DNA of 50,331 bases from positions 1 to 50,331 of the forward strand of contig NZ_JAUDCO010000010.1 in assembly GCF_030373545.1 (NCBI RefSeq), written 5' to 3'. Below are positions 5,445 through 29,864 of this stretch, piece after piece. Position 1 is the first letter of the stretch. Each line of letters opens with the position of its first letter. Under the pieces are notes generated by a model that saw nothing but the letters and a program-made list of their open reading frames with translations, was not told where the DNA came from and did not search any database. The stretch is from Collinsella tanakaei (GTDB lineage: Bacteria; Actinomycetota; Coriobacteriia; Coriobacteriales; Coriobacteriaceae). The position numbers and the translations under genes are program-made.

Positions 5445-5481
5445 TTGTGGCACAGCCCGTTCCCAAAACGCGCGGGAACGT
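5445..5481 (-). promoter_or_regulatory. Candidate operator and -10 upstream of the sugar-acid operon
   Basis: CGTTCCC (5459-5465) and GGGAACG (5475-5481) form a perfect 7-bp inverted repeat with a 9-base centre, just upstream of a -10-like CACAAT on the minus strand (plus 5445-5450). No good -35 hexamer is visible, so the repeat would sit where -35 should be, as for a repressor or activator site. No regulator gene lies beside it. Confidence 0.35.
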
Positions 5482-5539
5482 GACAAAAGGGACGCGCCGC
5501 CCCGTGAGATCGGGCGGGGCATACCGCGCCGAGGATCCA

Positions 5540-5624: not shown

Positions 5625-6005
5625 TTACTTGAGGGAGACGGCAGCGCCGGCGGCCTCGAGCTTCTCCTTGGCAGCCTCGGCGTCCTCCTTCTTGACACCC
5701 TCGAGAACGGCCTTGGGAGCGCCCTCGACGACCTCCTTGGCCTCCTTCAGGCCAAGGGAGGTGAGCTCACGGACGACCTTGATGACCTGGATCTTGTTGT
5801 CGCCGAAGCCCTCGAGCACGACGTCAAACTCGGTCTTCTCCTCCTCGGCAGCGCCAGCGCCAGCAGCGGGGGCGGCCACGACGGCAGCCGGAGCAGCGGC
5901 GGAAACGCCGAAGGTGTCCTCGATAGCCTTGACGAGCTCGGAAGCCTCGAGCAGGGTCATTTCCTTCAGAGCCTCGATGATCTCATCGGTGGTAAGCTTA
6001 GCCAT
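5625..6005 (-). CDS. rplL: 50S ribosomal protein L7/L12
   Basis: A 126-residue protein with the L7/L12 layout: an N-terminal dimerisation helix pair ([20 protein letters not shown]), an Ala-rich hinge with acidic EEE near 45-75, and the C-terminal factor-binding domain containing [19 protein letters not shown] and [10 protein letters not shown]. It forms the ribosomal stalk with L10 and recruits the translation GTPases. It follows rplJ on the same strand with a 102-base gap and ends at a strong intrinsic terminator. The length is normal for the family. Confidence 0.98.
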
Positions 6006-25868: not shown

Positions 25869-26852
25869 CTAATCTCCCAGCACCTCGCCCAAAAACTCCT
25901 GGTCAAACGGAATGACATCGGGCCAAGTGTACACGGCGTCCGAGGCGATCACTAAGTAGTTATCCTCGCCTGCGAAGAGCTCCTCGGTCACCGGCAGAAC
26001 CCACACGTGCGCGAACACCGCGGAGAGCGTGGCCACGACATCGCGCAGAAACGTCACGTCGGTCCCCTCCCCGCGCGAGACGACGTTGGTGATGTAGATG
26101 CCGCCCAGCGTCAGGCACGCGCGCACGGCGTGCATCGCCTCGATCGTGGCAAGGCCGCGCACGGGCTCCGCACCCGAGAAGGTGTCGTTGACGATGACGT
26201 CGTACGTCATCCCCTCGGCAGCACCGCGCTCGAGCACTGCCCGTCCGTCATCGCACACGAGCTGCAAGCGTGCGCCCGCGATATGTTCGAGCTCGTCGAG
26301 GAAGAACAGGCGCCGTGCCAGGCTCGTCACCTCCGGATCGATCTCCACGACGGTCATCGCAAGATCGGGATGCTCGGTCAGGGCGTACTTGGGCCATGCG
26401 TACCCACCGCCGCCGAGCGCGAGCACGCGCGAGATACCGTGACCCGAAACCGCGCGCATCGCGTCCTCGGCGTCGAAGACGACGCTGAAACCTTGCTGAT
26501 AGGCAAAGACCGGCTCGAAGCGGCGCTCGTCGAGGTAGGTCGCCGACTGGTACACGCCGCGCGTGCACAGGATGCGAGCTAGGGAGCCGTCAGTCAACCG
26601 CCGCGTACGGACGAACGTGAACCCGCTCGCCGTGTGCGCGACATGGGGATCGAAGCGCAGGTACACGATCGCGATGACCGACGAAAGCGCGAACAGCAGC
26701 GCCATGGCCCATGCCGCCGCCCCGCTCATGCCGCCCACCGTGAACGCAATCGCGATGAAGAGGATCACCGCGACGTCGACGGCCTCGGTCGGAAGGCCGC
26801 CGCCCGCACGACGGCGCGCGGATGCCTCGCGCTGCGAGATCTGTCTGCCCAT
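25869..26852 (-). CDS. Membrane-anchored spermidine-synthase-like protein
   Basis: A 327-residue protein. Two hydrophobic helices (about 25-42 and 46-66) precede a polyamine-synthase-like Rossmann domain with LALGGGGYAWP (145-155), VVEIDPEV (168-175), a CDDGRAVL motif and VIVNDTFSG. The acidic residues after the second and third strands fit aminopropyltransferases or relatives that bind decarboxylated SAM or SAM, but no SpeD or other polyamine gene is near. The ATG overlaps the stop of elp3 (TAATG), with GGAGCTG in front, so the two are coupled. It may make polyamines or be an uncharacterised methyltransferase-like protein. Confidence 0.75.
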   Translation of the reverse strand: MGRQISQREASARRRAGGGLPTEAVDVAVILFIAIAFTVGGMSGAAAWAMALLFALSSVIAIVYLRFDPHVAHTASGFTFVRTRRLTDGSLARILCTRGVYQSATYLDERRFEPVFAYQQGFSVVFDAEDAMRAVSGHGISRVLALGGGGYAWPKYALTEHPDLAMTVVEIDPEVTSLARRLFFLDELEHIAGARLQLVCDDGRAVLERGAAEGMTYDVIVNDTFSGAEPVRGLATIEAMHAVRACLTLGGIYITNVVSRGEGTDVTFLRDVVATLSAVFAHVWVLPVTEELFAGEDNYLVIASDAVYTWPDVIPFDQEFLGEVLGD

Positions 26853-28762
26853 TACAGCTCCTTTTGCTGATAAAGCCCGTGGTCCACAAACCCAAGATGC
26901 CTGTAGTATTCCCGCGTGCCCACCGCGCTGATCACGTTGATGCGCCGATAGCCTGCATCCTGTGCCAGAGAACATGCGCGCTCGATCAGGCGCTTGCCGA
27001 GTCCCAGGTGCTGGGCGGCGCGACCGTCGGCGCCCACGCGTGTCGCCATACCGTAGACGTGCACCTCGCGGATCATCGCCTCGCCCGCCGCCACGGGAAG
27101 TTCGGCCGCGTGTGCCTCGACATAGGCTTGCACGGGCAGCGAGAGGCGCAGGAATCCGGCGATGCGACCGTCCGCGCACACCCATTGCAGGAAGTGCTCC
27201 GTCGTGTTTTCCGTCTTGTACGAGACGGTGTCCAGGCGCAGGTCATCCACATCAACCGTCCGCGTGCCGATCTCGCGGAAGCGGATCTCCTGCACGTCGG
27301 GATGGACCGGTGCGTCATCGTCGGTGCGCGACGCCGCCGCGAGCCGCGCCTCGACGAGCTGGCGCAGGTTGGGTTTCTTGTTGCCCGCCACGATGTCGTC
27401 GGAGGAAAAGTCGCGGATCATGCGGGAGATGCGGCAGAACGCCGGTGTCGCGAGCACGTCCTCGACGAGCACATCGAGCAGCTCTTCCTCGGAATAGGGT
27501 ACCCACGAGCCGTCGCGATAGCGCTCGGCCAGGCGTGCGCTGCCGATCAGCGCGCAGGGGTAGAGCTTCACCTCGTCGGGCTGATACGCCGGGTCGTGCA
27601 TCAGGCGCGCGTAGTCGCGCTTGTCATCGGCCGGCGTCGCACCGAGCAGGTTGGCCATCGCGTGCGCATGGATCTTGAACCCGAAGGCGCGCAGCAATGC
27701 GAACGCCTCGGCGATACGTTCGACGGAGATTCCGCGCTCGTTGACATCCAGGATGCGCTGGTCGGTGCTCTGCACGCCCATCTGGATCTTGGTCGCGCCC
27801 AACCGGCGGATAAGCGTGAGCGCCTCGGGCGTGATGGCATCCGGGCGTGTCTCCACGACCAGGCCGACAACACGATGGCGGGCAGTCTCGTTGATGCGCT
27901 GCTGGCGCTCCAGCTCCTCGAGGGTCGCCGTCTGGGCGGATGCCGCCCGCCGCCACGCATCGCTTTGCCCGTACAGCCGCGCAACCGCCCGGTTGTAGCT
28001 GCACGAACCGGTATCGACCGCAGCCTGGGCCTCGGCAGATGCCGCCGCGAGCGCGTGCTCATCGGCCGTGATACCACAGGCGCGATACCACGCGCGGCGC
28101 TCGACGACCCCCACCGGCACGTCAGAGGAGCTCGCGAGCACGGCGCCTTTGTCCTCGCCGGGCGCGGCGAGCATGGGATTTGCCGCCACGCCGGAGACGG
28201 CATCGTCATTCAGGGCGCGGAACAGCTCGGTCACGAACCATATCTGGTAGTCGCGCGGATAGTCGCTCCACGTACCGCCCAAAATGATGAGCTCGATCTT
28301 GTCGGTGGCGTGCCCCATCTGCGAAAGCGCGGTCAGACGGGTCGATACCTGCAGATAGGGGTCGAAGCAGTTCTGCTCCGCGCGGGCGCAGGCCGGCTCG
28401 TCGTGCAGGTAGCTTTTGGGCATGCGCACATCGTTGGGACAGTAGAGGCAATCGCTGCCGCACGGCCAGGGTTTGGTGATGACCGTGATGGTCGCCACAC
28501 CCGAAGCGGAGCGGCGCGGCTTCATGCGGATGACGCGCAACAGGGCGCGCTCCAGCTCCGACGTCACGTTCCAGCTGCGCCAGCGCTCGGGCTCTTCGCG
28601 CTTGACGCGCTGGTAGAACGGCAACAGGCGCCGCTTGGCGAAGGCGCGCTTGTCGCCGCCGGTGCGCTTGGCCTGCGCATGCACGAGCTTGACGAGCGCC
28701 GCGTCGTCGACCGTCTCGCCGTGCCGCAGCATCTCGAGTATGTTCACGATGATGTCTTCCAT
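26852..28762 (-). CDS. elp3: Elp3-type tRNA U34 carboxymethyltransferase (radical SAM + GNAT)
   Basis: A 636-residue bacterial Elp3. The radical SAM cluster motif is CGSDCLYC (C101, C105, C108), with a short helical N-terminus before it and a C-terminal GNAT acetyltransferase domain (VYGMATRVGADGRAAQHLGLGKRLIERA). In eukaryotes and archaea Elp3 uses acetyl-CoA and SAM to make 5-carboxymethyluridine at wobble position 34. I chose ATG at 28762. It has no Shine-Dalgarno sequence, and a TACAAT -10 box ends seven bases upstream, so the message is probably leaderless. Coupled downstream is the spermidine-synthase-like gene; divergent is a Trm9-like methyltransferase. Confidence 0.93.
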   Translation of the reverse strand: MEDIIVNILEMLRHGETVDDAALVKLVHAQAKRTGGDKRAFAKRRLLPFYQRVKREEPERWRSWNVTSELERALLRVIRMKPRRSASGVATITVITKPWPCGSDCLYCPNDVRMPKSYLHDEPACARAEQNCFDPYLQVSTRLTALSQMGHATDKIELIILGGTWSDYPRDYQIWFVTELFRALNDDAVSGVAANPMLAAPGEDKGAVLASSSDVPVGVVERRAWYRACGITADEHALAAASAEAQAAVDTGSCSYNRAVARLYGQSDAWRRAASAQTATLEELERQQRINETARHRVVGLVVETRPDAITPEALTLIRRLGATKIQMGVQSTDQRILDVNERGISVERIAEAFALLRAFGFKIHAHAMANLLGATPADDKRDYARLMHDPAYQPDEVKLYPCALIGSARLAERYRDGSWVPYSEEELLDVLVEDVLATPAFCRISRMIRDFSSDDIVAGNKKPNLRQLVEARLAAASRTDDDAPVHPDVQEIRFREIGTRTVDVDDLRLDTVSYKTENTTEHFLQWVCADGRIAGFLRLSLPVQAYVEAHAAELPVAAGEAMIREVHVYGMATRVGADGRAAQHLGLGKRLIERACSLAQDAGYRRINVISAVGTREYYRHLGFVDHGLYQQKEL

Positions 28763-28769
28763 AGGGCGC

Positions 28770-28775
28770 ATTGTA
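28770..28775 (-). promoter_or_regulatory. -10 box implying a leaderless elp3 mRNA
   Basis: Minus-strand TACAAT ends seven bases before the elp3 ATG, so transcription should start at or next to the start codon. No -35 hexamer and no ribosome-binding site are visible. Confidence 0.5.
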
Positions 28776-28868
28776 CTATGGCGCAGGCGGCAAGGCGGCA
28801 CCGGACAGCGCGGCGCGACGGCGGGGCGCCTGAAACGGACGTTTGGAGCCCCTATCCCGTCCGCCGGA

Positions 28869-29017
28869 GGCCATACCCCCGTTTAGGGGACGGTTTTAGT
28901 CGGCACCTCCGAGTAGCCGGAAATTCGGCAACACGTCTACCAGCACCTTTTCTGAACAGCATGGGGGATCTACTCGACCACCCCCTCTAAAACCGTCCCC
29001 TAAACGGGGGTATGGCC
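28869..29017. mobile_element. 149-bp MITE-like element with 31-bp perfect terminal inverted repeats
   Basis: The arms at 28869-28899 and 28987-29017 are exact inverse copies (31 of 31), beginning GGCCATACCCCC. The 87-base centre holds a further inverted pair, CGAGTAG ... CTACTCG, and no open frame. It fills the intergenic space between elp3 and the divergent methyltransferase. I see no obvious target duplication. It resembles a non-autonomous transposon or a large REP-type element. Confidence 0.65.
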
Positions 29018-29084
29018 CAGGGCGCTACAATGAAGCGAAAATCGACTGGCCCGAACAGCCCGATCGTGCCCGAAAGGAGGCGCT

Positions 29085-29864
29085 GTGGACGCACAGCTCG
29101 CCCGCGAGCTCATCGCATGCAACAACGAGTTCTATCGGAGGCATGCCGCGTCGTTCTCGGCAACCCGCCAGGCGCCTTGGCAGGGCTGGGCGCGCGTTGT
29201 CGAAGCAGCGCGGGCGCTCACCGAGCCGTCACGCACCCTTCATGTGCTCGACGTCGCCTGTGGCAACCTGCGCTTCGAGCGGTTCCTTGCCGAGCGGATA
29301 CCCACGGTCGAGCTCTCGTGCCTCGCCGTGGACAGCACACCCGAGCTTTCCTGCGATGCTTCCGCGATCCGCGGCGTCCGCACGCGCACCGTCGATGTGC
29401 TCGAGGTGCTGCTCGACGGGCGCGATCCGCTCGATGCCACCGGGACGTTCGATCTGACGGTCTGCTTCGGCTTTTTGCATCATGTGCCGGGCGGGAATCT
29501 CCGCCACGCGCTGCTTAACACCCTCGCGCGCCACACCTGCGCCGGCGGCATCATCGCGCTTTCCCTCTGGCAGTTCATGGACGACCCGCGCCTGGCGCGC
29601 AAGGCGGAGACTGCCGAAGAAGCGATGCGCGAGCAAGGTTTTCCCGTCGACGCACTCGACGCAGACGATCACTTCCTCGGCTGGCAGGACAGCATCCAAC
29701 CCGTCCGCTACTGCCATCATTTCAGCGAGGCCGAGGTCGACGAACTTTCGGCCCACCTCTCCCAGCGCGGCGCTCGCGAAATCGACCGGTTCTCGGCGGA
29801 CGGCCGCTCCGGCACGCTCAACCGCTACCTCATCTGCCAGATAGAGAAATCAAGCCGTCTATGA
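29085..29864 (+). CDS. Trm9/ALKBH8-like SAM methyltransferase
   Basis: A 259-residue class I methyltransferase with motif I VLDVACGNLRFERFL, motif IV-like FDLTVCFGFLHHVPGG and GGIIALSLWQF. The order of features recalls Trm9/ALKBH8: a CGN motif, the HH motif, a GG..LW strand, a late W (FLGWQ), and a tail RYCHHFSEAEVDEL ... GTLNRYLIC, which parallels the hRYYHlF..gEL...gNW of those enzymes. Trm9 methylates cm5U34 to mcm5U34, the product of Elp3, encoded divergently here. That makes a tRNA wobble role plausible but unproved. GTG at 29085 follows AAAGGAGG. Its stop overlaps the start of the GNAT gene. Confidence 0.75.
   Translation: MDAQLARELIACNNEFYRRHAASFSATRQAPWQGWARVVEAARALTEPSRTLHVLDVACGNLRFERFLAERIPTVELSCLAVDSTPELSCDASAIRGVRTRTVDVLEVLLDGRDPLDATGTFDLTVCFGFLHHVPGGNLRHALLNTLARHTCAGGIIALSLWQFMDDPRLARKAETAEEAMREQGFPVDALDADDHFLGWQDSIQPVRYCHHFSEAEVDELSAHLSQRGAREIDRFSADGRSGTLNRYLICQIEKSSRL

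Follow-up and report, generated by a model that had tools for sequence, protein, structure and literature searches.

The 149-bp palindrome lying between two genes of Collinsella tanakaei is one of about 30 copies in its own genome, and these belong to an apparently undescribed family of fixed-length repeats of Collinsella and its relatives. On balance, and as a whole, the best explanation is taken to be that the feature is a non-autonomous palindromic element working at the level of DNA, a member of a family of the order Coriobacteriales, and that the family consists of selfish palindromes resembling REPINs with an unrelated, nuclease-type partner which would mobilise them. No published account of the repeat family was found in a literature search of open-licence papers.

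The element in the window

The window, i.e. the whole stretch of 50,331 bp that was analysed, is contig C2 of a 2.2-Mb genome (own genome, labelled G000). The positions of the element and of its parts are listed in Table 1. Both arms are exact reverse complements over 31 bp and 87 bp lie between them, which makes 149 bp in total, and an inner pair is formed by CGAGTAG (28910-28916) and CTACTCG (28970-28976); the coordinates bear out everything that the earlier note had read from the letters in these respects. Its intergenic placement is correct as well, since the element is flanked by two divergent genes, one for a radical-SAM/GNAT protein (26852-28801, minus strand), which we take to be Elp3-like, and one for a methyltransferase (29085-29864, plus strand), 90% identical to its counterpart in Collinsella tanakaei ET10. 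The fold energy of the element amounts to -86.7 kcal/mol in comparison to -45.8 +/- 3.9 in 200 shuffles (z -10.6; 0/200). The constant part of the family measures about 133-139 bp and excludes the outermost bases of the 31-bp arm, which other copies do not share. A covariance model built from 39 copies gives the window element 130 bits on the minus strand and 85 bits on the plus strand.

Table 1. Coordinates of the element, its parts and the loci at which a gene lies between two elements
Feature	Position	Strand	Remarks
Whole palindromic element	28869..29017	-	core (GAGTAG...GCTGGTAG...CTACTC) reads on minus strand
Left arm, 31 bp	28869..28899	+	family part TACCCCCGTTTAGGGGACGGTTTT, GGGGA arm type
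Right arm	28987..29017	-	exact inverted copy of left arm
Core GAGTAG ... CTACTC, 65 bp	28911..28975	-	63-67 bp, mostly 65, in core-pattern relatives
Conserved middle block AAAAGGTGCTGGTAGACG	28934..28951	-	family consensus AAAcC.GCAGGTaGa
Two-sided loci (element-gene-element)	L220, L231 (G017); L371 (G041); L372 (G058); L375 (G064)		

Copies in the genome and their geometry

The copy count proposed in the earlier note was carried out and revealed a multi-copy, hairpin-forming element with 29 arm pairs in its own genome. A DNA search of this genome returned 63 matching pieces, the arm pattern with up to 3 mismatches gave 57 matches vs 0 for the reversed control, and a wider arm pattern gave 73 vs 8. 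In the 29 copies the arm starts are paired 112 bp apart, and all 56 arm matches with 0-1 mismatch fall inside these short pairs, the interiors of which (91 bp) have a mean identity of 53% when compared ungapped. To check the spacing without selecting for it, arm pairs at any distance from 90 to 140 bp were accepted in the element loci retrieved from three genomes; 55 of the 59 pairs obtained were spaced at 112 bp, two at 113, one at 114 and one at 110, pairings at 117, 133 and 140 bp being left out of the 59 (two of them hide true 112-bp pairs, L131 and L181). A constant length beside strongly diverged interiors is the first striking fact about these repeats. The inverted doublet of REP-type ends at a fixed spacing, which is the mark of a REPIN, is therefore present here (55/59 pairs at 112 bp).

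The consensus opens with ACCCCCGTTTA, followed by a five-base block (GGGGA, CGGTT or GAAGA), CGGTTTT, about 11 variable bases and CGAGTAGAC. After about 25 further bases come AAAcC.GCAGGTAGA, about 20 bases, CTACTCG, about 11 bases and the inverted arm. The five-base block swaps as a unit: both arms carry the same block in 49 of the 59 pairs, and ten pairs are mixed.

Spread across the Coriobacteriales

The arm pattern of the window is present in 3 of 43 genomes of the genus. With the covariance model at E<=0.001, matches were obtained in 62 of 65 genomes of the host family, a count which includes weak matches unvetted and in which one element may count twice, as a palindrome can match on both strands. 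The matches inspected, six per genome in five genomes and one each in four others, display the same core motifs at a model length of 133-147, with arms that do not resemble the ones in the window. The core GAGTAG-N-GCAGGT-N-CTACTC is conserved across genera at nearly fixed length and it is the arms that differ; G058 and G037, which belong to different genera, have one arm type in common, and G017 has several. The layout of the family can be described as inverted arms of about 16-30 bp, perfect or nearly so and specific to a lineage or subset, placed around a core of nearly fixed length.

The core pattern by itself occurs in 26 of 396 genomes of the class, 20 from the host family and six from a second family of the order, with 88 matches vs 19 for the reversed control in the same class-wide genome set. 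Among distinct cores from 28 core-pattern loci, inverted arms scoring at least 13 accompany 21 of the 26 that contain GCAGGT and 0 of the 3 that do not, and such arms were found in 1 of 4971 random placements. Since GCAGGT cores predict arms, core and arms form one unit, and what varies by lineage is the arms and not the core. Copy number, fixed geometry, core conservation and block-wise arm variants are all read directly from the copies.

Searches of phages (by DNA and by protein) and of plasmids (by DNA) gave no match above threshold, nor did a search of viral contigs with two arm patterns. The core pattern was met in 49 viral stretches, which were taken as chance, as none has arms and none scores at least 9.

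The gene found between elements

In two of the genomes without a Y1_Tnp match, the genes adjoining elements include those of four homologous proteins (P0001-P0004), and the genes of P0001 and P0002 each lie between two elements. Altogether, the order element-gene-element with a gene of this putative nuclease family inside is observed at five loci in four genomes. The prediction that close element pairs hold the gene was tested on eight pairs with 1.2-2.3 kb between them that were chosen by eye from the listed coordinates. Three of them (in G041, G058 and G064), equal to 3 of the 20 regions of that scan, contain it, and their proteins reach 221, 277 and 210 bits against a profile built without them. 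The remaining five pairs hold other DNA and no gene of the nuclease family, and no family member was found in the other regions searched, namely the other 17 of the 20 and L391, L392, L396, L397, L398 and L400. One-sided cases are L226 (G017) and L215/L399 (G023), the latter with an element plus solo arms.

At the five two-sided loci the arms of both elements are the same or show few differences, and they differ between loci. In G058 and G064 the gene-flanking arms differ from those of the best-scoring elements, with no match when 4-5 mismatches were allowed. As a control, DNA taken at even spacing from G017 and G058, 785 kb in all, was searched; it holds about eleven element matches and one divergent relative of the protein family (L411), with no inverted repeat scoring at least 13 within 500 bp and no element nearby. 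A full and a solo site were also observed with the same flanks, G041 having element-gene-element and G000 one element, the core of which gives 0.60 and 0.53 against the two G041 elements and is not clearly derived from either.

A search at E<=0.01 of the window, of seven other G000 stretches and of 244.8 kb surrounding the G000 elements gave no member of the nuclease family. Because these comprise a minor part of the genome, the partner in G000 may lie elsewhere or be lost. A helper acting in trans, as the earlier note supposed, is still the natural reading, with three Y1 genes on other contigs and the nuclease family absent from the window.

The foremost alternative is that another, unseen recombinase or transposase spreads the elements and that the nuclease gene is cargo or a hitchhiker. 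The absence of the gene near the G000 copies, the other DNA within five of eight close pairs and the minority arm type that accompanies the gene in two genomes would all agree with this. It is nevertheless considered unlikely, for in four genomes genes of one and the same protein family recur between elements, with arms particular to each gene, and the 785 kb of control DNA yielded the family only once, as a divergent relative.

Some relatives of the gene were seen in other settings. A tblastn search of plasmids with P0001 gave three Collinsella aerofaciens records. The record NZ_OY725722.1 (L401; 1785 bp, C. aerofaciens, labelled plasmid), where the relative is matched without its N-terminal part, was considered as an excised circle and rejected, as it has no inverted repeat and no element. 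At L035:5975-6168 and L038:5937-6122, weaker relatives of the gene are accompanied by another, longer palindrome at or just past their 3' end (arms of 24-36 bp with 122-138 bp between), to which the 139-bp element model does not match.

The partner protein

The partner is likely a two-domain protein comprising an N-terminal part weakly like AbiEi and a Vsr-like (DUF559-type) nuclease. All of its Pfam matches are below the curated cut-offs (DUF559 with 19.8 of 20.6 bits in P0004, MTES_1575 with 26.8 of 38.2 bits in L372), P0001 and P0002 have no Pfam match to DUF559 or MTES_1575, NCBIfam names none of P0001-P0004, and PADLOC and PHROGs provided marginal matches only. A structure model was made of a weaker relative, L036; its confidence is low (mean pLDDT 67, pTM 0.54), and Foldseek returned no match for it at E<=0.001. 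With a second aligner, residues 213-329 matched I-Bth0305I (Z 11.5, rmsd 2.4, 94 residues), NGO0050 (Z 10.4) and E. coli Vsr (Z 8.7), with 92-95 residues aligned across the three; the fold of a Vsr-like nuclease domain is thus found in this low-confidence model of the weaker relative. The N-terminal part of L036 compares to the AbiEi antitoxin with Z 4.6, a likeness that may reflect a common arrangement. We infer that the partner protein is an active nuclease that reads the arms and moves the elements. No report linking Vsr-like or DUF559 proteins to palindromic repeats was found among open-licence papers.

DNA sites or structured RNA

A structured regulatory RNA is a rather improbable explanation of the feature. 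The hairpin is very stable, and the GAGTAG stem of the core shows partner-specific pairing on the oriented strand, better than with permuted partners (z -3.1, 0/100 permutations, 52 non-redundant sequences). However, among seven other core regions one flank reached z -2.4 (2/200) and the rest were no different from permuted partners, and a middle hairpin seen by eye in single copies was rejected as unsupported by permutation. In 28600-29300 no Rfam family exceeded its gathering score, the sole match being RF00017 with 14 bits against 70. The arms vary as whole blocks without G:U at the most variable columns; at columns 16/124 and 17/123 neither G:T nor A:C was ever seen in 55 sequences. Owing to these block-wise variants and the lack of G:T and A:C, the arms are regarded as sites read in DNA and not as a drifting RNA stem.

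At 50 loci both neighbours were called (by simple open-frame choice, a few loci overlapping); the neighbouring genes are convergent at 17 of them, co-directional at 27 and divergent at 6. Two further observations argue against an RNA: the orientation of elements relative to co-directional genes is even, 12 vs 14, and no common function of neighbouring genes was seen by eye in 30 proteins scanned.

Two peculiarities of placement were observed. A terminator-like palindrome stands directly before the element in the same place at L391 (~5770-5805) and L393 (~5470-5510), with sequences that differ between species. An open frame of at least 1044 codons encloses the element copy around 1501-1633 of L221 (G023:C5:115324-115456), and this copy may therefore be inserted in a protein gene.

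History of the window site and of other sites

The note's suggestion of recent activity found no support, as G036 and C. tanakaei ET10 both carry this element between the same two genes. G036 has the same arms and an inverted core, the reverse alignment of 145 bp showing 94% identity; the arms of the C. tanakaei ET10 copy (L034) are CGGTT/GGGTT, and a decayed trace of the element was recognised by eye in L035. The G041 genome and that of L034 were counted as one species because their coordinates are identical (G041/G065). With the same site occupied in three species, the window copy is not a recent insertion. A single copy at a site conserved in all relatives had been named as the finding that would favour a regulatory RNA; the site is indeed conserved, but the element has many copies. 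The copy in the window probably dates far back and was inherited, and no partner gene was found in the parts of its genome that were searched.

Flanks matching G000 element loci were found at 12 of 15 G036 loci and 6 of 9 G041 loci, and many element sites are, judged from these sequences, inherited vertically. The empty sites and target duplications that the note wished to see did not appear: at three sites compared (L170, L169 and the site at 282 kb on contig C1) no clean empty site, no duplication and no insertion into an empty site was found. At the first, the element is present in G036 and G041 and is gone from G000 by imprecise deletion; at the second, the G041 counterpart has diverged too far for a judgement; and at the third, G041 carries elements of its own.

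The core of the window element lies inverted in G036 between flanks collinear with those of G000, which would suit an inverton, i.e. an invertible switch with the arms as recombination sites. That reading is nonetheless very unlikely, given that orientation is kept in 11 of 12 clear one-to-one G000-G036 pairs and inverted in one, the window element, with one more site complex, and is kept in all three clear G000-G041 pairs. The L161/L135 rows and unclear rows were left out of the 12; by eye, the L161/L135 site is a chimera-like mix of two neighbouring elements. The one inversion at the window site is a direct observation, and so are the association of elements with the gene between them and the solo vs full site.

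Comparison with known repeat systems

Correia elements, ERIC and RUP serve as examples of MITEs for comparison. The repeats described here are likewise short, non-coding and nearly fixed in length, with terminal inverted repeats. No target duplication was seen at three sites, and the inside is conserved while the ends are variable, which is the reverse of a MITE. The element, which the earlier note called MITE-like, departs from an ordinary MITE in that conservation across genera extends to its inside but not to its terminal repeats. EDxHD or Vsr-like homing endonucleases (I-Bth0305I) and DUF559 proteins resemble the C-terminal fold in the model of the partner's relative, and the N-terminal part of the partner, weakly AbiEi-like (Z 4.6), sets it apart from them.

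The closest likeness is to REPIN/RAYT of Pseudomonas and E. coli: an inverted doublet with short conserved ends at a fixed distance, hairpin-forming and intergenic, with lineage-specific ends and a cognate gene adjoining copies. The differences lie in the partner, which in Coriobacteriales is likely a Vsr-like nuclease and not a Y1 HUH transposase, and in the core, which is conserved across genera here while the ends are not. The family acts as a REPIN population and its enzyme do, yet it does not pass the test that defines REPIN/RAYT, the Y1 transposase. A REPIN moved by a RAYT (Y1 HUH transposase) was rejected as a general explanation and is highly improbable: the architecture is REPIN-like (inverted ends, fixed spacing of 112, ends alike within a genome, diverged spacer) and the own genome has three Y1_Tnp matches, but G017, G023, G042, G044, G046 and G057 have no Y1_Tnp match despite 12 to 40 model matches, in which both strands of one element may count, and none of the three G000 Y1 genes is flanked by the arms, one being flanked by a different repeat, GGGGACGTGTTCC.

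At L140 (G000:C3:32500-36000) a Y1_Tnp gene (1078-2305) lies amid many copies of a second palindrome (ATGGGTTG...GGGGACGTGTTCC...CAACCCAT), which also abuts several 139-bp elements. The gene and the second palindrome look like the genome's own RAYT-REP pair.

REPIN spacings of 71 bp (GI) and 110 bp (GII) are given in PMC3116915. The CGTC/GTAG-tagged REPs (PMC3733652) resemble the family in that one arm type, CGTC-CCC-TAAAC-GGGG, has the form of a tag plus a small hairpin, and GTAG occurs in the core. In contrast to these REPs, a tag of this kind is missing from other arm types of the family, the stem falls far short of the 8-9 bp that CGTC families have, and the unit here is the whole 133-139 bp and not a REP of 20-40 bp.

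Proposed mechanism

With the nuclease-type partner as the preferred reading, the nuclease would recognise the arms, or a target resembling them, and cut, and repair would copy the element or the arm from another copy. Such cut-and-copy would spread the elements and would keep arms alike within a genome while cores drift. The core would invert between inverted arms, and a gene between two elements would be deleted, leaving a solo element. In the simplest model each nuclease would read the arms of its own type, which would account for the fixed geometry, the exchange of arm variants as blocks, the inversion, the reduction of a gene-bearing site to a solo element and the arms particular to each gene.

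A bolder version is put forward tentatively, being judged somewhat short of probable: each arm type would be the recognition site of its own Vsr-like nuclease, with a conserved core and interchangeable arms, which would make this a new mobile system. Under the same version, and with the same reserve for the two taken jointly, element-nuclease-element would be the autonomous form, with the solo elements, tens of them in each genome, as its satellites.

Significance

The textbook example of bacterial repeats kept up as a population by a domesticated enzyme is REPIN-RAYT. If the preferred explanation is true, the Coriobacteriales would have a second REPIN-like system with an unrelated, nuclease-type enzyme, and this life style would have evolved more than once. 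The family would also provide a natural series of matched arm/enzyme pairs for studying the co-evolution of specificity, and one conspicuous class of intergenic repeats in gut Coriobacteriales would be explained.
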